Source: Acidobacteriota bacterium
GTDB lineage: Bacteria > Acidobacteriota > Terriglobia > Bryobacterales > Bryobacteraceae
NCBI GenBank assembly: GCA_025352795.1
Contig: JANXSF010000041.1
Location: 62,001 to 126,000, forward strand
Length of the DNA stretch: 64,000 bases
Reading direction: 5' to 3'
A program made the position numbers and the translations under genes. Shown here one piece after another: positions 3,734 through 14,498 of this stretch (its first letter is position 1; each line of letters starts with the position of its first letter). The notes below the pieces were generated by a model. It worked only from the letters and a program-made list of their open reading frames with translations. It made no database searches and had not been told where the DNA came from.

Positions 3734-5845
3734 ATGAGATTCCGACACGCACAATTAGTTTGCAATGCTACACAACTCCTGATGGCTTTTAGTATGAGTA
3801 TTCCCCTGTTAGCACAGGCACAACCCACCTCCGCTATCGGCGGGCCGGAAATAGCTTCTGGAATGGCTTTAGTCGCATTCCTGGGTGGCAGCCTGTACGC
3901 TCTATCCAAACTTCGCGTAAAGCCAATGGCCGATGGAACTCAGCCAATTCAAAATGAAGATGTTATTGCCCGTCATTTGATTTACGGAGCCACCGACTCC
4001 ATTTTCGTAATCAACGAAGAAGGGATAATTCAAAGCGCCAACCCAGCAGCCGAACGTATGTTTGGATATCTGGAAGGAGACATCCGTGGACAAAACATCG
4101 CGACTCTAATCCCACCTCCAGACCGTGGGCGCCGTCGGGCAAATTACATCCAAAACTCAGGAAGCCACGAACTGTTCGCCGTTCAAAAAACGGGAGACCG
4201 TATTCCCATTGAATCCTCCTTCAGCGAAATTGTACTAGGTGAGAAAAAGCTGTATTCCTTGGTCATTCGCGACATTACAGAGACTAGGAAGAAGCAGGAG
4301 CTGGTCAATTTCCAGCAAAATCTGCTCACTGAAATTCTGGTGAATGCGGGCTTTATGCTCTTCGTCGTGGATCGCAATGGCACAATCGTTCACTTCAACC
4401 GTGCCTGCGAAAATGTCACTGATTTCTCTTTCGGTGAAATCAAGAATCAGAAAATTTGGGATGTAGTGGCTGCCCCTGCCGATTCCGAAGCCATGCGCGA
4501 GCAAGCTGCACAGTGGTTTGATGGTCCGTTCCCGTTGCAGCAGAATTCCACTTGGACTAGCCGGGACTACACCCGCAAACCAATCGCCTGGACCTATACA
4601 GCATTGAATGATTCCTTCGGTCGTCCGAATTATATTATCGGCACAGGCTATCTCCTCAACGAGCAGCAGATAAATTCGCAAGCGCTTCAATCGCAAAAAA
4701 TGGAAGCAGTCAGTCGATTTGCAGGCGGCTTAGCTCGCGATTTCAGTAACCTACTCACAGCCATCACTGGTTACAGTAGCTTGCTGTTAAGTTCTCTTGA
4801 AGACACCAACCCAATTCGCAAAGATGTCGAAGAAATCAAAAAAGCCTCTGACCATGGAGTCAAGATCACCCGTCAGTTACTGGCAGTTAGTCGGCATCAG
4901 GTTTTGCAACCGAAAGATTTCGATCTGAATGCTGTCTTGAAAGATATGGAGATGCTGCTTCGACGAATTCTGGGGAATCGCATTGCCGTGGAATTCGATC
5001 TGGCGCAGCCCGATGCCGTCATTCACGCCGATCAAGGTCAAATTGAACAGGTCATCATTAACATTGTGGTCAATGCCCGCGATGCCATGCCCCATGGTGG
5101 AAAGCTGACCATTGCCACCAATCTCTTTTCCCTTCCCCACGGCGATACCAATCTGAATCCTAACCTGCAAGCGGGGTCTTACTGCAGCATTCGCATTACC
5201 GACAGCGGCATGGGCATGGATGAACAGACGCAGCAACATATTTTTGAGCCATTCTTCACCACCAAACGCAGTGCCGGTGCTGCCGGAATGGGGCTGGCCA
5301 CAGTGTATGGAGTGATCCGTCAAAGTGAAGGGTCCATCAGTGTTGTCAGTGAGCCCAATGGGGGCAGTAGCTTCCTGATCTATTTGCCCTCTGCCGAAGC
5401 AATCCGGCACAGAAAACTTCCTGAAAAAACTGTGCTGAAAATTGTGCCCACTGGCAGTGAAACCATTCTGGTGGTTGAAGGAGATGAGCGAATTCGGGCG
5501 ACCGTTGCCAAAGGATTGGCCCGCTTCGGGTACAGGATATTGGAAGCTGTTTCAGGCGCTGAAGCAAAAGAGATGAGCCACAATTGGGAAGGGAAAATCC
5601 ACATCCTGGTGGCCGATGCGCTGATGCCCAGCGTCGGTGGTCCAGATCTTGCCCGCGCTATCCGCATGCAACGGCCGGAAACCAAGGTGCTCTATATCAG
5701 CGCTGAAGCCGAAGAAAAAGTAATTCGCTATGGGCTTTCCACCAGCAATACCTATCTGCTTGCCGATACCTTTAACGCCGAACATTTCGCTGAAAAAGTT
5801 CGCCAGATTCTTGATACCAAAACCATGTCGGCGGGCATGTTTTAA
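3734..5845 (+). CDS. PAS-PAS hybrid histidine kinase with Arg in place of the phosphoacceptor His
   Basis: 703 residues. A signal-like hydrophobic segment and a second one (about 15-28 and 40-60) anchor the protein in the membrane. PAS domain 1 spans about 78-183 and PAS 2 about 196-308. The dimerisation/phosphotransfer region follows with QKMEAV...GGLARDFSNLL: where NtrB-like kinases have AHDFNN, codon 335 (4736-4738) is CGC, Arg, so the canonical phosphoacceptor is missing. The HATPase domain (about 430-550) looks intact: N-box NIVVNARDAMP, G1 DSGMGM, F-box FEPFFTTK, G2 GMGLATVYG. A receiver domain (about 575-695) keeps the Asp (VAD, residue 628), but the usual C-terminal Lys-Pro is Asp-Thr (LLADTF), and the acidic pair reads EGDE. 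This suggests a degenerate or non-canonical sensor. No partner regulator is adjacent. Confidence 0.85.
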   Translation: MRFRHAQLVCNATQLLMAFSMSIPLLAQAQPTSAIGGPEIASGMALVAFLGGSLYALSKLRVKPMADGTQPIQNEDVIARHLIYGATDSIFVINEEGIIQSANPAAERMFGYLEGDIRGQNIATLIPPPDRGRRRANYIQNSGSHELFAVQKTGDRIPIESSFSEIVLGEKKLYSLVIRDITETRKKQELVNFQQNLLTEILVNAGFMLFVVDRNGTIVHFNRACENVTDFSFGEIKNQKIWDVVAAPADSEAMREQAAQWFDGPFPLQQNSTWTSRDYTRKPIAWTYTALNDSFGRPNYIIGTGYLLNEQQINSQALQSQKMEAVSRFAGGLARDFSNLLTAITGYSSLLLSSLEDTNPIRKDVEEIKKASDHGVKITRQLLAVSRHQVLQPKDFDLNAVLKDMEMLLRRILGNRIAVEFDLAQPDAVIHADQGQIEQVIINIVVNARDAMPHGGKLTIATNLFSLPHGDTNLNPNLQAGSYCSIRITDSGMGMDEQTQQHIFEPFFTTKRSAGAAGMGLATVYGVIRQSEGSISVVSEPNGGSSFLIYLPSAEAIRHRKLPEKTVLKIVPTGSETILVVEGDERIRATVAKGLARFGYRILEAVSGAEAKEMSHNWEGKIHILVADALMPSVGGPDLARAIRMQRPETKVLYISAEAEEKVIRYGLSTSNTYLLADTFNAEHFAEKVRQILDTKTMSAGMF

Positions 5846-7077
5846 CTCTCTTTTTCTTTAATCACTTCCTTTATGACAAGTGCCTCATGCACCCGCTCAC
5901 GGAATTTCCCCTGCATCCCGCTAGCTAATGAAAGGCTATCGTCGCCAAAGCGATCACGCATTTTATCTGCCGCTTGAAATACTCTTCTCAGCCGATCTTT
6001 CTTGTCGCCCTCAAGCAGGTTCATCTGTGGCGAAGCCCCTTCGAACCCAGTCAGATGAACGCCCAACAGTCGGATGGCCATGCCCGGCTTCCAATTGCTG
6101 CGGAATAGGTTCCGCACAGCGGTCAGGATCTCCGTATCCAGCTCAGTAGGGTCCGCCAGGGACTTCGCCCTGGTGATGGTGGAAAAGTCCTTATAGCGCA
6201 GCTTAAGCTGCACTGTGCGGGCATGAAAGCCATGCTCCCGCAACCTGCGACCCACCATTTCCGATAACCGCGATAGCGTGGATTCAAGAATCGTCGCGTC
6301 CGTTGTATCTTCAGAATAGGTGTGTTCATGGCTGATCGATTTCGGATCCTCGGTGGCACCAATTTCTGTATCAAACCAGCCACCAGCATCTTCGCCCCGA
6401 GCCTTGCCCGCTAGCGCCATCCCAACCTTTCCAAAATGCTCTGCCAAAAATCGCTCGTCCATCCTCGCCAAATCACGCACCTTGCGAATCCCATATTTGG
6501 CTAACGTGGCCTCGCTCACTTTGCCGACGCCAGGAATTTTTCGTACATCCAGCGGCCCTAAAAACGCCGCTTCCATTTGCGGTGTGATCCACAATATGCC
6601 ATTCGGTTTTGCCTGATCACTGGCCACTTTTGAAACCAGTCGTGAGCGGGACGCTCCTATGGAATTATTGAGTCCAGTGGCTTGCTTTATTTTTTCATGA
6701 AGCTTATGGGCAGCAGCCATCGGTGGACCGTACATTCTTTCTGTCCCGGTCATTTCCAGGTAAGCTTCATCAATGGAAGCCATGGAAACTTGCGGCGAAA
6801 AGTTGCGCAACACTTCGGCCACTTTCAAAGAGACTTCGCGATATCGGGCAAGATTCCCTTCCAGGAAAATCGCTTGTGGACAAAGTTTGTAAGCAGTGCG
6901 CAGCGGCATTGCCGAATGCACCCCAAACTTGCGCGCTGCATAGGATGCGGCTGAAACCACACCACGAGCATCGGGCCTCCCGCCAACAACCACAGGCTTG
7001 CCCTTCAGCGATGGATCATACAGTTCTTCAACGGAAACAAAGAACGCATCCATGTCGATGTGGAAGATAGAACGCAT
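5842..7077 (-). CDS. dinB: DNA polymerase IV (Y-family translesion polymerase)
   Basis: 411 residues, slightly longer than E. coli DinB (351). It starts MRSIFHIDMDAFF, with catalytic Asp8 and the steric-gate Phe13 at the same numbers as in E. coli. SIDEAYLE at 101-108 supplies Asp103 and Glu104. The helix-hairpin-helix segment KIPGVGKVSEATL and the little-finger domain follow. QMNLLE near residue 355 resembles a beta-clamp-binding motif (QLxLF type), followed by an extra tail of about 50 residues. Performs error-prone lesion bypass in the cytoplasm. Last gene of the DUF1385-prfA-prmC-dinB run, 24 bp after prmC. Its stop overlaps the convergent histidine kinase by 4 nt. No LexA box was recognised. 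Confidence 0.95.
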   Translation of the reverse strand: MRSIFHIDMDAFFVSVEELYDPSLKGKPVVVGGRPDARGVVSAASYAARKFGVHSAMPLRTAYKLCPQAIFLEGNLARYREVSLKVAEVLRNFSPQVSMASIDEAYLEMTGTERMYGPPMAAAHKLHEKIKQATGLNNSIGASRSRLVSKVASDQAKPNGILWITPQMEAAFLGPLDVRKIPGVGKVSEATLAKYGIRKVRDLARMDERFLAEHFGKVGMALAGKARGEDAGGWFDTEIGATEDPKSISHEHTYSEDTTDATILESTLSRLSEMVGRRLREHGFHARTVQLKLRYKDFSTITRAKSLADPTELDTEILTAVRNLFRSNWKPGMAIRLLGVHLTGFEGASPQMNLLEGDKKDRLRRVFQAADKMRDRFGDDSLSLASGMQGKFRERVHEALVIKEVIKEKES

Positions 7078-10194: not shown

Positions 10195-13100
10195 TCACGG
10201 TCGTAACAAACTGAGAATGGTAACCCCATGCTTTTCCGCGGTGCCTTTGCCAATACCTGGAACATTCAAAAGCTGCTCGGTATTCGTCGGACGTTGTTCC
10301 ACCAAAGCGCGTAGAGTTTGATCGCTGAACACCCTGAAAGCAGGGGTTTTCCGTCGCTTTGCTTCCACCATGCGCCAGGCCCGTAGCTTCGCTTCCAGTT
10401 TCGGATTAACAACGGAAGCAGATTTTTTCGCAGATTTCCGACCCTTCGTGAGGCTCTTTTGTCCCTTCGGTCGATTGATGGATGACTCCGTTTTCACCAA
10501 GAGTTCAACCTCTGAAGTTTCATCTAAATCTGCTGCATCGCGAGTCAAAGCTGCCTTGCGATAAGGAATCTGCTTGCCGTCTTTCTCAAAAATCGCATCG
10601 GTGAGGGTCAGAAATCCCAATCGCACCATGGCCCCTAATACTTGTTCAAATTCATCGCGAGTCATTTCCCCATGAGGGAACAATTCGGAATGAAGCTTGC
10701 CGGTGGATTTCCCTGACTGCTCTCGCAGCACTTTCACTACCCGATCAAACGCCTTGCGTTCCTGTTTGGTAGCTGGGCGAAACTTTTGTGCCTCGCAATT
10801 TGCAGGGGCACAAAAATCACAAATCCCACAGGCCGTTTTGGAATCGGAAAGATCGCCAAAGTGCCGTACCAGGGCGGCCATGCGGCATTGGTTCCCTTCC
10901 GCAAAGCGCAACACATGGGCAATTTGTTCCCGCCGCTGCTCACCATGGGCCAAGTACGAGCTACGCCAATTGGCGTGACCTTTCGTGCCATTTTCTAAGA
11001 AGTCCAGAATAGCGCCGCCGTGAATCCATAATTTTTCCAGCGCCTTATCGAACACATCGGGATCTATGCGCGCTTTCCTCTGCAAGTCATCTTTGGATTT
11101 CGGCTCGCTGGAGAGTAGAGCGTAAATCCGGTCCAGCACTGGCACTTCCGGATAGTCCCGCTCCACAAAAAAATCATGCGTGTAACGATCGGCGTAGGAG
11201 TGCATCAGCACCACCCGGCTAGGATTGCCGTCCCGCCCGGCGCGACCAATTTCCTGATAGTAGCCTTCAATGGTCCCAGGCAAAGCGGTATGGATAACGG
11301 TGCGGATATCGGGCTTGTCAATCCCCATGCCGAAGGCGATTGTGGCGACCATCACTTGCAGTTTGCCCGCCTGAAACCGTTCCTGCACCGATTGACGATG
11401 GGCTGCGTCCAGCCCGGCGTGATAGGCAGCCGCAGGCATCACGCGCGCCAATTCCGCCGATAAAGATTCCACCTGCTTTCGCGTCGGCGCGTAGATAATG
11501 GCGGGGCGCCGTTCTTCATCGTCCAACAATTCCAGCACCAACCTGGAACGGTCAGTGGGAGAAATTTCCACCACTTCTATCGCAAGGTTGGATCGTCGGA
11601 AGCCGTGAATGAACTTGGCTGCTTCCGATAACCCCAACTGCGCGGCAATGTCTTTTTGCACCATCACCGTCGCCGTAGCAGTCAATGCAACCACGGGGGC
11701 CGGTCGTAAGCTGGGAAGATGCTGGCCGAACATACGGTAATCAGGCCGAAAATCGTGACCCCATTGGGAAATGCAGTGCGCTTCATCAATGGCAATCAGG
11801 GACGGCTTACGCTTGGCAAGCATCTCTGGGAAGCCGGCAACTCGAAGCCGTTCGGGAGCAATGAAAAGGAACTGCAATTTCCCATTTAGATAATCAATGC
11901 AGGTCTGCCGTGATGCGGCGCGGTCGCGACCAGAGTGAATGCGTCCGACAGCGAAACCCAAGCTGGCAAGCTTGGCCACTTGATCTTCCATCAACGCGAT
12001 CAAGGGGCTGATGACGAGTGTTGTGCCACCCCTGGCAATACCGGGAAGTTGGTAACACAAGGACTTGCCGGAGCCGGTGGGCATGACCAGCAACACGTCA
12101 CGCCCTTCAATGACGGCGTTGCAAACAGCTTCCTGATTGGCCCGAAAGCCTGGATAGCCGAAGCCCTTTGTGAGTAGATCCGATAAGCTGCTGAAAGTCT
12201 GCGGCTCACTCAGAACCACTTCTACCAGGGGCTTTGAAACAACTTCGGACTTCTTCGCAATTTGTGGCGAGCCCGCTTTTCCAACCACATCGGTCACATA
12301 GGCTTCAATGCCGGAAAGGAACCCATCGAGCTGTGCCCCGCCCTTCTCAATGCGTTTCAGGTAAGCTTCCCACTGGCCGGTCATAATGGGACTCTTCACT
12401 TCTGGATGAACGACTTCAATCAGACGGATACCTTTATCGGTTGCCTCAAGGCTCTTGCCATCGCGAACAATGTATTCGCGTTTCAACAGCACTTCAATGA
12501 TGGAAGCGCGGGTGGCCGGGGTGCCTAGACCGCCTTCTTTCATGGCGTCGGAAAGTTCCTTTTCATCCAGCGTCTTGCCGGCTGTATCCATGGCCGTGAG
12601 CAGCGTGCCTTCTGTAAATCGACGAGGGGCTCGGGTCTTTTTGCTAACTGCCTCCACATCCACCACATCTTGCTGTTGATCCTTTTCAAGCGAAGGCGGC
12701 AGCACTTGTTCATCAGTGTTTTTCTCCGCGGCCTTCCCTTTTTTCTTTTCAGCCTGAAGATCCAAAATCTTCCAGCCAACCTGCTTCACTACTGTTCCAG
12801 AGGAATGGTAGCGATCTACAATTCCAGGATTCTCAATTATCGTAATGACAGTGGTGACAGACCAGATGTGATCGTCATGCCATGCGCTTAATAAGCGTCG
12901 AGCGATAAGGTCATAAATTTTGGTTTCATCGGCAGATAAATTGGCTCTGCCGGGGGGCGTGGTTGTGGGAATAATGGCGTGGTGATCGCTGACTTTGGCG
13001 GCATCCACGTAACGACGGCTCAATAGACGATCGCCAGTGCCTAGTGCAAAATACTTGCCATACTGTGGTTCCAATTGCTTAACGATTGCAGGCAATGTTG

Positions 13101-14142
13101 CAGCAACGTCGGCGGGAAGATGTCGGCTATCTGTTCGCGGATAGCTGATGAGCTTATGCTTTTCGTACAACGCCTGGGCTAAATCCAGAGTCTTCTGCGC
13201 GGACATGCCGAACAGCCGATTGGCGTGACGTTGCAGTTCGGTCAAGTCATAAAGAAACGGCGGAACCATCCGTTGCGTTTCCAATTTCAGGGATTCCACT
13301 TTGGCCTTGCCGGATTGAGCGCGGGCTACAATATCCTTCGCTTCCGCACCATCGGCGGGCAATCGCATGGACTGCTGCAGAGATTCCTTGTCGGCTGCAT
13401 TCATGGCTTGCGGACGGAACCAAGTGCCCTGGTAGACACCGCCTTTGGGTGTCGCAGTAGGACGGAAGGTGGCGATCACTTCCTTGTAATCTTCGGGCAC
13501 GAAAGCTCTGAATGCCAGTTCCCGTTCCACCACCATGGCCAGTGTTGGAGTTTGCACGCGGCCTACGGAAAGCTCTTCGCCACAAGCCAATGTATAGGCT
13601 CGGGAAAGATTCATGCCCACAAGCCAATCGGCACGGCTACGGCCACGGGCAGCATCGGCTAAGCCATCGTAAGTCGAGGCGGGCTTCAGAGAATCGAAAC
13701 CTTTTCGGATGGCTTCGGGAGTGAGCGAAGAAATCCACAATCGATCTACAGGCTTCTGCGAATTTGCAGCTTCGTAGATATAGCGGAAAATCAGCTCACC
13801 TTCGCGTCCAGCATCCGTCGCACAAACAATGCGGCTGATTTTGGGTGAGGTTAATATCTTTCGAACGGTTTCAAACTGGTCTTTCGTTTTGTCATAAACA
13901 ACGAGCGGCCAAGACTGCGGCAGCATGGGCAATGTATCCCGACGCCAACTTTTCCAAGCGGGGTTAATTTCATGCGGCTGCGCCAAAGCGGCAAGATGCC
14001 CAATAGCCCAAGTGACCACGTAGCCGTTCCCATGGAGGAAGTTATCCCCTTTGGTGGTGGCGCCCAAGACTTTGGCGATGTCGCGGGCTACGGACGGCTT
14101 TTCGGCTAGCACTGCAATGGAGCCGCTGGTATCGGTCTGCAT
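10195..14142 (-). CDS. DNA topoisomerase III - RecQ helicase fusion protein
   Basis: One uninterrupted 1315-codon frame from ATG 14142. Residues 8-150: TOPRIM domain, with AEKPS (Glu14) and DAGREGE (Asp110 to Glu116). The active-site tyrosine is Tyr334 in LISYPRTDSR; the topoisomerase body continues to about 620 and ends without the C-terminal zinc fingers seen in many type IA enzymes. After a short linker (about 625-648), a complete RecQ helicase follows: Walker A MPTGSGKS (687-694), DEAH (786-789) with the RecQ aromatic loop ISQWGHDFRPDYR, VATIAFGMGIDKPD (932-944), motif VI QEIGRAGRDG (963-972), the RecQ zinc site Cys1086, Cys1105, Cys1108 and Cys1111, a winged-helix region and a C-terminal HRDC domain (about 1246-1315). 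All catalytic residues of both enzymes are present, so the protein should couple duplex unwinding to strand passage, like the separate RecQ-TopIII (BLM-TOP3A) pair that dissolves double Holliday junctions. Flanked by an unrelated gene 47 bp upstream on the other strand. Confidence 0.93.
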   Translation of the reverse strand: MQTDTSGSIAVLAEKPSVARDIAKVLGATTKGDNFLHGNGYVVTWAIGHLAALAQPHEINPAWKSWRRDTLPMLPQSWPLVVYDKTKDQFETVRKILTSPKISRIVCATDAGREGELIFRYIYEAANSQKPVDRLWISSLTPEAIRKGFDSLKPASTYDGLADAARGRSRADWLVGMNLSRAYTLACGEELSVGRVQTPTLAMVVERELAFRAFVPEDYKEVIATFRPTATPKGGVYQGTWFRPQAMNAADKESLQQSMRLPADGAEAKDIVARAQSGKAKVESLKLETQRMVPPFLYDLTELQRHANRLFGMSAQKTLDLAQALYEKHKLISYPRTDSRHLPADVAATLPAIVKQLEPQYGKYFALGTGDRLLSRRYVDAAKVSDHHAIIPTTTPPGRANLSADETKIYDLIARRLLSAWHDDHIWSVTTVITIIENPGIVDRYHSSGTVVKQVGWKILDLQAEKKKGKAAEKNTDEQVLPPSLEKDQQQDVVDVEAVSKKTRAPRRFTEGTLLTAMDTAGKTLDEKELSDAMKEGGLGTPATRASIIEVLLKREYIVRDGKSLEATDKGIRLIEVVHPEVKSPIMTGQWEAYLKRIEKGGAQLDGFLSGIEAYVTDVVGKAGSPQIAKKSEVVSKPLVEVVLSEPQTFSSLSDLLTKGFGYPGFRANQEAVCNAVIEGRDVLLVMPTGSGKSLCYQLPGIARGGTTLVISPLIALMEDQVAKLASLGFAVGRIHSGRDRAASRQTCIDYLNGKLQFLFIAPERLRVAGFPEMLAKRKPSLIAIDEAHCISQWGHDFRPDYRMFGQHLPSLRPAPVVALTATATVMVQKDIAAQLGLSEAAKFIHGFRRSNLAIEVVEISPTDRSRLVLELLDDEERRPAIIYAPTRKQVESLSAELARVMPAAAYHAGLDAAHRQSVQERFQAGKLQVMVATIAFGMGIDKPDIRTVIHTALPGTIEGYYQEIGRAGRDGNPSRVVLMHSYADRYTHDFFVERDYPEVPVLDRIYALLSSEPKSKDDLQRKARIDPDVFDKALEKLWIHGGAILDFLENGTKGHANWRSSYLAHGEQRREQIAHVLRFAEGNQCRMAALVRHFGDLSDSKTACGICDFCAPANCEAQKFRPATKQERKAFDRVVKVLREQSGKSTGKLHSELFPHGEMTRDEFEQVLGAMVRLGFLTLTDAIFEKDGKQIPYRKAALTRDAADLDETSEVELLVKTESSINRPKGQKSLTKGRKSAKKSASVVNPKLEAKLRAWRMVEAKRRKTPAFRVFSDQTLRALVEQRPTNTEQLLNVPGIGKGTAEKHGVTILSLLRP

Positions 14143-14189
14143 GAACCCTTCCAGTTTAACGAGCGATGGACGGATATACTAAAATCTTT

Positions 14190-14498
14190 ATGACAAATTA
14201 TGCAGGAACGTTGTTGACGGTGGTGGCAGAAATGCAGGCCAAGCCTGGAAGTGAGGCTGATTTGCGGCGCGAATTGCTGACATTGGTGGAACACACAACG
14301 CAAGAAGATGGGTGCGTTCAGTATGATTTGCATGAAAGCACTGCGACTCTGGGGCAGTTCGTTTTCTATGAAAACTGGACGTCTGCGGCAGCTTTGGAAA
14401 AGCACGGAGGGTCAGCGCATATTCAAGCGTTTCGAGCCAAGGCGTCGGGACTGCTGGCTGGACAATCGCGCATTGTAACGTATCATCGCATTGGCTGA
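14190..14498 (+). CDS. Antibiotic biosynthesis monooxygenase (ABM)/YgiN-like domain protein
   Basis: A 102-residue single-domain protein of the dimeric alpha+beta barrel type. LLTVVAEMQAKPGSE at the start, then EDGCVQYDLHES and FVFYENWTSAAALEKHGGSAHIQAF are typical ABM-family segments seen in putative quinol monooxygenases and heme-degrading relatives. I chose the ATG at 14190 (MTNYAGTLL); a frame extending to 14166 adds eight unlikely residues. It is divergent from the topoisomerase-helicase gene (47 bp) and ends 1 nt before the ATG of the secreted hydrolase, so these two are likely co-transcribed. Substrate unknown. Confidence 0.8.
   Translation: MTNYAGTLLTVVAEMQAKPGSEADLRRELLTLVEHTTQEDGCVQYDLHESTATLGQFVFYENWTSAAALEKHGGSAHIQAFRAKASGLLAGQSRIVTYHRIG

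Follow-up and report, generated by a model that had tools for sequence, protein, structure and literature searches.

In the window (the whole 64,000-nucleotide stretch that was analysed), a single open reading frame at 10195–14142 of the minus strand, with an ATG start, encodes 1315 amino acids that comprise a type IA topoisomerase of the TopIII (TopB) family and a RecQ helicase. The frame itself and its matches to the Pfam domains and NCBIfam models of both families bear out the original prediction that the two enzymes form one polypeptide. The fusion is conserved in several bacterial groups, and it probably works as a strand-passage machine that unites RecQ and TopIII in one chain, which may be called a bacterial 'toposome' or dissolvasome.

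The Pfam matches (Toprim, Topoisom_bac, DEAD, Helicase_C, RecQ_Zn_bind, and HRDC) have E-values from 3e-108 to 2e-7, and their layout places the topoisomerase first, as predicted, opposite to the order of reverse gyrase, in which the helicase is N-terminal to the topoisomerase. The Toprim domain (residues 11–139; 13726–14112, on the minus strand like all features below; Pfam PF01751) contains E14 and D110-A-G-R-E-G-E116. The type IA topoisomerase core (residues 158–609; 12316–13671; Pfam PF01131, E-value 3e-108) has a predicted fold like that of E. coli TopIII and contains the catalytic residue Tyr334 (codon at 13141–13143). Residues E14, D110, E116, and Y334, all named beforehand, were verified codon by codon, and E114, R336, and K693 were likewise confirmed from the DNA. 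In an alignment of 76 fusions, no variation is seen at the checked catalytic residues among the 73–76 rows that cover them; Tyr334 is present in 76/76 rows, E14, K15, Y334, and R336 are invariant in all rows covering each, and the named Toprim residues in the 74–75 covering rows.

The fusion scores 669 bits against PRK07726 (DNA topoisomerase 3; curated cut-off 597) and 582 bits against TIGR01056 (topB; curated cut-off 515.75). The AlphaFold2 (AF2) model of the topoisomerase part is superimposable on E. coli TopIII with a TM score of 0.87 on the target. The Toprim motif is DAGREGE, with Gly112 in place of the second, middle Asp of DxDxE in 75/75 covering fused rows; the E. coli form with both Asp residues is thus absent, the E. 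coli TopIII motif being DPDREGQ in the alignment to PDB sequences. Since Gly112 also occurs in 34/34 stand-alone TopB rows (DAGREGE in 33, DAGREGQ in 1), most of which were found with the probe CATDAGRE, the variant does not separate the fusion from TopB at large. The loop at residues 243–258 (13369–13416) aligns, in the same comparison with PDB sequences, with residues 241–255 of E. coli TopIII, which we take to be the decatenation loop of that enzyme. Its length is similar to that of the E. coli loop at the aligned place, and its function is putative; the stretch from W241 to R260 is 18 residues in this fusion and 7–45 across the fusions. RecQ had been proposed to take the place of the C-terminal zinc fingers of the topoisomerase. 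This is only partly right: the TopB profile match breaks off shortly before the core is complete, at profile position 602 of 669 or 706, and zinc fingers in the missing tail are putative.

The RecQ half scores 387.7 bits against TIGR00614 (recQ_fam; cut-off 219.8) and below the cut-offs of the narrower RecQ equivalogs TIGR01389 and PRK11057. It comprises RecA-like domain 1 (residues 668–825; 11668–12141; Pfam DEAD) with Walker A (residues 687–694; 12061–12084) and DEAH (residues 786–789; 11776–11787), RecA-like domain 2 (residues 867–972; 11227–11544; Pfam Helicase_C) with R967 and R970 of motif VI, a zinc-binding domain (residues 1067–1111; 10810–10944; Pfam RecQ_Zn_bind) with Cys1086, Cys1105, Cys1108, and Cys1111, and an HRDC domain (residues 1249–1312; 10207–10398; Pfam PF00570, E-value 8e-19). 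The predicted residues D786–H789, R967, R970, and the four cysteines were verified codon by codon, and Walker A was seen in the translation and the alignment. Walker A, DEAH, the aromatic-rich loop, motif VI, and the zinc Cys4 residues are invariant in the covering fused rows, the cysteines in 73/73. The AF2 model of RecQ aligns with D. radiodurans RecQ (VIA Z 30.4, rmsd 5.9, 475 residues aligned) and with E. coli RecQ (VIA Z 30.1, rmsd 5.7, 475 residues aligned).

Between RecA-like domain 2 and the zinc-binding domain lies a region of ~64 residues (996–1059; 10966–11157) that is extra compared with E. coli RecQ, the best E. coli RecQ stretch ending at residue 986 and the zinc-domain match starting at 1067. 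The AF2 models predict it, with confident secondary structure, to be a small helical or hairpin module, and conserved columns persist in an alignment that includes 21 stand-alone RecQ rows. Residues 1122–1203 (10534–10779), C-terminal to the zinc site, form a winged-helix-like region according to the AF2 secondary structure; the VIA alignments to RecQ cores reach model residue 580, which corresponds to residue 1219, and Pfam RQC has no match in the fusion. HRDC was undetected in the scanned fusions of Competibacteraceae (L066) and Nannocystis (L080), and inspection by eye past the stop codon in five Competibacteraceae gave no convincing HRDC remnant.

The linker joining the two halves (residues 623–654; 12181–12276) is Ala/Pro-rich and 10–377 residues long across the 76 fusions. 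In the AF2 model, pLDDT is below 50 at residues 628–644, and the linker is modelled as disordered. The pTM is 0.58 for residues 1–1195 and 0.82 for the RecQ part alone. Given the variable linker length, the low confidence there, and this difference in pTM, the two halves have no confident fixed arrangement; the linker seems to be a tether rather than a lever.

The original prediction called for a survey of related genomes, and the same fusion is indeed found there, in at least 76 fused frames from Acidobacteriota, Myxococcota, Bdellovibrionota, Competibacteraceae (Gammaproteobacteria), and one 'Geobacter' MAG. Since the genome scan used the probes CATDAGRE and VMPTG[AS]GK, this spread is a lower bound, and the sample of stand-alone TopB leans to the CATDAGRE motif; the counts of fused genomes were tallied by hand from tables, and the trees and residue counts leave aside six further fusions, one cut frame, and a later set of loci. 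Among the 41 nearest genomes, 12 have neither half of this TopIII–RecQ family. That assembly or annotation joined two separate genes might be suggested by the few relatives in which the halves lie apart, at contig ends (G015, G042, and G243) or next to each other in frames that overlap but differ (G019 and G026, 2 of the 41 genomes), where the frame change may reflect an error in sequencing, a frameshift, or genuinely split genes. However, at least 67 of the fused frames lie away from any contig edge, and the complete chromosome of Nannocystis poenicansa carries one. A fused frame conserved in so many independent assemblies rules out such an artefact for practical purposes. Two separate genes at the locus were not seen among relatives with intact frames, and the remaining half-and-half cases are contig-end cuts, or losses or truncations of one half. 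In G651, a partial TopB (54% over residues 11–333) is cut off by a contig end and may or may not be fused; a RecQ of this family also occurs on its own in that genome. The stand-alone TopB of G411, considered as a close relative, proved to be ordinary (44% over its length).

Its own genome contains no TopB other than the fusion. A separate RecQ is also present, so of the separate topB and recQ whose presence was to be checked, only recQ was found. In the plasmid and phage records, no single place covered 80% of the query. Viral contigs yielded 34 RecQ-like loci with probes from the RecQ half, and none of the ORFs at these loci scored with the topoisomerase half.

Both halves are under purifying selection, which is far weaker on the linker: dN/dS is 0.07–0.27 for the topoisomerase half and 0.05–0.15 for the RecQ half (10 pairs each), and 0.29–0.75 for the linker (9 pairs). 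Distances in one half correlate with those in the other (Pearson 0.81, Spearman 0.70; 2850 non-independent pairs), which counts weakly because genes of one genome often correlate. The fused TopB halves form one clade (SH-aLRT 100), which includes none of the 34 stand-alone TopB rows. For the fused RecQ halves, grouping as one clade is rejected (AU p 1.8e-66, based on one tree, the trees being 'quick' ones without bootstrap), and stand-alone RecQ relatives nest among them. The basal order of the RecQ tree is unsure since the outgroup rows have long branches. Stand-alone RecQ proteins of the same subfamily, those of Acidobacteriaceae among them, lack the topoisomerase and are 44–66% identical to the RecQ half of the fusion (longer rows), and that of Occallatibacter (L087) is the same long RecQ with the zinc site and HRDC. 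Nested as they are among fused proteins, the Acidobacteriaceae ones are probably derived by loss. The simplest history suggested by the trees would be one fusion event followed by repeated loss of the topoisomerase half; as RecQ was seemingly kept each time, the combination is dispensable.

The activities of the fusion, their coupling, and its cellular substrate, as we infer them, would be as follows. The RecQ half would translocate along and unwind DNA, or migrate branched junctions, and would thereby provide the single-stranded DNA on which type IA topoisomerases depend. The TopIII half, tethered 1:1 by the flexible linker, would cut that strand via Tyr334 and then pass DNA through the gate, so that hemicatenanes, precatenanes, or double Holliday junctions would be unlinked. 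The domain architecture, the intact active sites, the predicted folds, the selection on each half, the single TopB lineage, and the wide conservation favour this reading. Against it count the E. coli genetics that favours RecG, the apparent repeated loss of the topoisomerase half, the genomes that keep TopB without an intact RecQ, the lack of a conserved recombination operon among the loci compared, and the 12 near genomes with neither half.

The same chemistry could act mainly on converging replication forks and precatenanes and less on recombination intermediates. E. coli TopIII is a decatenase at forks and reportedly cooperates with RecQ and SSB where forks converge (PMC7614492, PMC7140829), and the genome of the fusion has RecG and RuvB matches above cut-offs, which are available for recombination and indicate that the fusion is not the sole junction-processing route. 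However, no link to replication genes appears in the neighbourhoods examined, and we regard a predominant fork substrate as rather unlikely. This reading is compatible with the toposome. Less likely still, the halves could be two independent, mechanically uncoupled enzymes whose fusion serves co-expression or stability. The disordered linker of any length would fit this, as would the RecQ half that occurs alone in many lineages and the genomes in which TopB persists but no working fused RecQ does (G017, with no RecQ, and G170 and G189, with a degraded RecQ remnant). However, RecQ without TopB is common, and the reverse is found only in G017, the sole complete member of the fused-TopB clade clearly without a RecQ part among the matches listed, with G019, G026, and the contig-cut G651 piece set aside as ambiguous; mere co-expression would not lead one to expect this asymmetry. 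That TopB of this lineage almost never occurs without RecQ, while RecQ survives without TopB, may mean that this TopB lineage needs RecQ.

The fusion had also been likened to a mesophilic analogue of reverse gyrase, which would add positive supercoils with ATP. Reverse gyrase, like the fusion, combines an SF2 helicase and a type IA topoisomerase in one chain. However, the topoisomerase half is nearest to TopIII and the helicase is a RecQ, the fusion scores 110 bits against the reverse gyrase model TIGR01054 (cut-off 471.7), and the order of the two enzymes is reversed. Reverse gyrase requires a latch or part of a latch (PMC7614492), whereas the join in the fusion has no conserved coupling element and is a disordered linker of variable length. 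We therefore reject the analogy on family score, order, and linker, and consider it highly improbable. Helicase-appended topoisomerases are said to be the title subject of one published paper.

Two known systems are also close to the proposed single-chain toposome. E. coli TopB and RecQ belong to the same two enzyme families, and the catalytic Tyr region aligns, but they are separate proteins, with DPDREGQ rather than the DAGREGE of the one-chain fusion. The eukaryotic BLM/Sgs1–TOP3A/Top3–RMI1 dissolvasome, known from human and yeast, brings together a RecQ-family helicase and a type IA TopIII, as does the fusion, which differs in being one polypeptide with a bacterial TopB instead of TOP3A and with other RecQ accessory regions; no OB fold, such as an RMI1-type subunit has, is among its Pfam matches. 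Dissolution by BLM–TOP3A–RMI1 is a known pathway (PMC4109787, PMC8191776), and a 2014 review described the interplay of BLM and TOP3A as unclear (PMC4109787).

The question of a functional RecQ–TopIII unit in bacteria goes back to the first in vitro work on the pair, which reportedly dates from 1999. The papers state that E. coli RecQ stimulates TopIII in vitro (PMC7140829), that the in vivo partnership is without support in E. coli according to a review from 2020 and a study from 2026 (PMC7140829, PMC13244152), that no physical interaction was seen (the same two papers), and that genetics favours RecG over RecQ as the partner of TopIII (PMC13244152); one review counts EcTopoIII among RecQ-complexing enzymes (PMC8191776). 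The available part of the open-access PMC literature yielded no description of a natural TopIII–RecQ fusion, and an earlier one is possible. Conservation of the fused enzyme across several bacterial groups provides natural evidence that some bacteria couple the two activities. The family makes the partnership directly testable and provides a single stoichiometric protein for studying cooperation between the RecQ motor and the type IA gate. Chances are about even that bacteria evolved, on a single occasion, a covalent one-chain dissolvase parallel to BLM–TOP3A, that this TopB lineage depends on the RecQ motor, and that the RecQ–TopIII toposome is genuine in bacteria and, in E. coli, absent or replaced by the RecG partnership.

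The neighbours of the fusion in the window include Pol IV, PrmC, RF1, DUF1385, and ABM. Eight neighbours, searched in the flanks of 38 relatives, gave one 60% match (the ORF at 14491, in sister genome G001) and weak 24–29% matches in two other relatives. Clustering of the ORFs from 48 loci, some with the fusion and some with RecQ alone, gave a largest neighbour cluster of 8 loci, all in one genus (g26), and no conserved recombination operon or defence context was found across the 48. A Listeria record has recQ and topB as adjacent genes, 23 bp apart, which is a second hint of linked function. If true, the one-chain dissolvase together with this adjacency would make the RecQ–TopIII toposome a real bacterial machine.

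The fusion is encoded by an open reading frame of 1315 residues (10195-14142, minus strand) and exceeds the curated cut-offs of both the TopB and the RecQ family models. By Pfam, the Toprim and type IA core occupy residues 11-609 and are followed by a pair of RecA-like domains (668-972), the zinc site of RecQ (1067-1111), and HRDC (1249-1312). All catalytic residues listed in the original prediction are found in the protein. The residues named for a DxDxE-like Toprim motif are present as well, but the motif itself reads DAGREGE, with Gly112 in place of the second Asp.

AlphaFold2 models of residues 1-1195 and 640-1315 have a mean pLDDT of ~91. The best structural match of the modelled topoisomerase half is E. 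coli TopIII (TM 0.87 on target), and the modelled RecQ half aligns with RecQ cores (VIA Z 30.4, rmsd 5.9, 475 aligned). The E. coli RecQ match has nothing that corresponds to the roughly 64 residues (996-1059) separating RecA2 from the zinc site; in the alignment, they contain conserved columns common to the fusion and the stand-alone RecQs of the subfamily. At the place aligned with the E. coli TopIII decatenation loop, the fusion has a loop of similar length that is variable across the fusion family. The Competibacteraceae fusions (L062, L066, and L215-L218) have a short C-terminus, 110-114 residues past R1122 compared with 194 in the window fusion, and the domain scan detects no HRDC in L066.

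The fusion is not an artefact. Both halves lie in a single frame in 20 of the 41 nearest genomes (own genome and 40 relatives, counted by hand from the tables). Contig ends cut the fusion in three others (G015, G018, and G023). In G019 (L056) and G026 (L036), the two halves adjoin in different overlapping frames, and the frame change may be a sequencing error, a frameshift, or a true split. One genome (G017) has the TopB half without RecQ, three (G036-G038) have the RecQ half alone, and neither half is found as a member of the fusion family in 12 of the 41.

Hand counts in wider samples give fused frames in 36 of the 299 genomes from the class and in 7 of the 199 from the phylum (G847 among them). 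In the Nannocystis phylum, 23 of 188 genomes have one; the phylum to which a Bdellovibrionales MAG belongs gives 2 of 144, and the order that includes Competibacteraceae gives 26 of 40 (start cut off in one of the 26). The class, phylum, and order samples overlap, so fused counts are not additive. Five rows of the Competibacteraceae order sample have a TGA within the match. In G697, the row in which its position was inspected, the TGA falls past a 1269-residue frame that carries both halves. Among the matches listed, named genomes with fusions are Bryobacterales, Nannocystis poenicansa (in a complete chromosome), Corallococcus, Sorangium, Bdellovibrionales, Competibacteraceae, and a 2 Mb 'Geobacter' MAG, which carries a second TopB and may be mis-binned.

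Taking as fused every frame that scores >400 bits in both halves, we obtain 76 rows, 67 of which do not touch a contig edge. The checked topoisomerase residues are identical in every covering row (74-76 of 76), as are the checked helicase motifs (75-76 of 76) and the four zinc cysteines (all 73 covering rows). Pieces with one half <400 bits are left out, including those of G170 (L205) and G189 (L207), in which the TopB half is kept and the RecQ remnant ends near residue 840 with an altered DEAH. Both genomes also have a stand-alone RecQ of the fusion family. Across ten pairs of close relatives, dN/dS is 0.07-0.27 in the topoisomerase half and 0.05-0.15 in the RecQ half (655-1120); it is 0.10-0.28 in region 1121-1315 (nine pairs) and 0.29-0.75 in the linker (nine computable pairs). 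The window genome and its sister make up a further pair, the eleventh, whose synonymous sites are saturated except in the linker (dN/dS 0.89).

The topoisomerase tree groups all 76 fused halves in a single clade (SH-aLRT 100) that excludes the 34 stand-alone TopB rows. The clade holds ten other rows: seven have a contig-end cut or a frame change before the RecQ half (L016, L017, L022, L068, L084, L088, and L238), two are the degraded G170 and G189 genes, and the tenth (L018, from G017) is a TopB with a stop soon after the core, on a 9.2 kb contig in which no RecQ was detected. In the RecQ tree, fused and stand-alone rows are interleaved. A test on 67 fused rows and 42 stand-alone ones, omitting edge-cut rows, the outgroup, and split-fusion halves, rejects a single clade of fused RecQ rows (log-likelihood 390.7 lower, AU p 1.8e-66; 13 state changes).

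The simplest reading of the trees is that one fusion was followed by several losses of the topoisomerase half with RecQ retained. It is formally possible instead that a single TopB lineage was joined to related RecQs on separate occasions. In Acidobacteriota, 18 stand-alone RecQ rows (Acidobacteriaceae and Acidobacteria) form a clade nested inside the fused proteins on starred branches, and the RecQ piece of G015, where a contig end splits the fusion, falls with them. Near the base of the RecQ tree, where outgroup branches are long, are some stand-alone RecQs that may predate the fusion. Among fused rows, the pairwise distances of the topoisomerase halves correlate with those of the RecQ halves (Pearson 0.81, Spearman 0.70; 2850 pairs), as would be expected if the halves were inherited as a unit and often also for genes merely sharing genomes.

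The original prediction took the protein for a candidate dissolvase or reverse gyrase analogue. It is composed of TopB and RecQ family members in an architecture resembling the dissolvasome and reverse gyrase, yet it is a member of neither. The RecQ half would open or migrate DNA, exposing single strands; the tethered TopIII half would cut one strand and pass other DNA through, so that linked duplexes part. The linker would keep both halves at one junction. It is 10-377 residues long in the fused rows (19% Ala, 17% Pro), and pLDDT is <50 at 628-644. Because its length varies nearly forty-fold, it is probably a tether rather than a rigid coupling as in reverse gyrase. The pTM of the 1-1195 model is 0.58 although local confidence is high, which would agree weakly with a flexible tether. 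The substrate may be double Holliday junctions, converging forks, or precatenanes.

BLM-TOP3A-RMI1 carries out dissolution (PMC4109787, PMC8191776). The literature on the E. coli RecQ-TopIII partnership is not uniform: EcTopoIII is stated to be able to form a complex with RecQ (PMC8191776), 'lack of experimental evidence' is a section heading on the toposome (PMC7140829), and a 2026 study names RecG, not RecQ, as the TopIII partner (PMC13244152). In the part of the literature that was searched, no paper was found to describe a TopIII-RecQ fusion occurring in nature. Judging by the family models, automatic annotation would probably label the relatives' public sequences as DNA topoisomerase III or RecQ.

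The window genome (96.6% complete, 140 contigs) has a TopA-like protein, RecG, and RuvB, and no second TopB was found in it. A separate RecQ (670-codon frame) lies ~31 kb from the fusion on the same contig. Among the rows listed, no fused-frame genome of the class sample has a second TopB at E 1e-70. Of the 23 fused genomes in the Nannocystis phylum sample, 3 have one at E 1e-100 (G432, G477, and G502), and a looser limit adds TopBs in G333 and G328.

No conserved neighbours of the fusion are seen outside close relatives. A DNA polymerase IV gene (IMS family; 5842-7077, minus strand) lies four genes downstream, with DUF1385, RF1, and PrmC genes between on the same strand, and has no match in the flanks of 38 relatives. 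On the other side, the fusion diverges from an antibiotic-monooxygenase-domain ORF, with 23 bp between the listed start codons (window 14142-14166).

In Listeria (L253:2480-6429), recQ and topB are neighbours on one strand, 23 bp apart and with their order reversed relative to the fusion, in one record of a 594 kb replicon labelled plasmid. Several short contigs that carry pieces resembling topB and recQ are filed as records of Listeria phages LM 4-11-1 and LM 4-14-1 and may be host DNA. The RecQ of viral contig L137, with the best E-value of the viral RecQs found, is 51% identical to the fusion RecQ half in its best segment.
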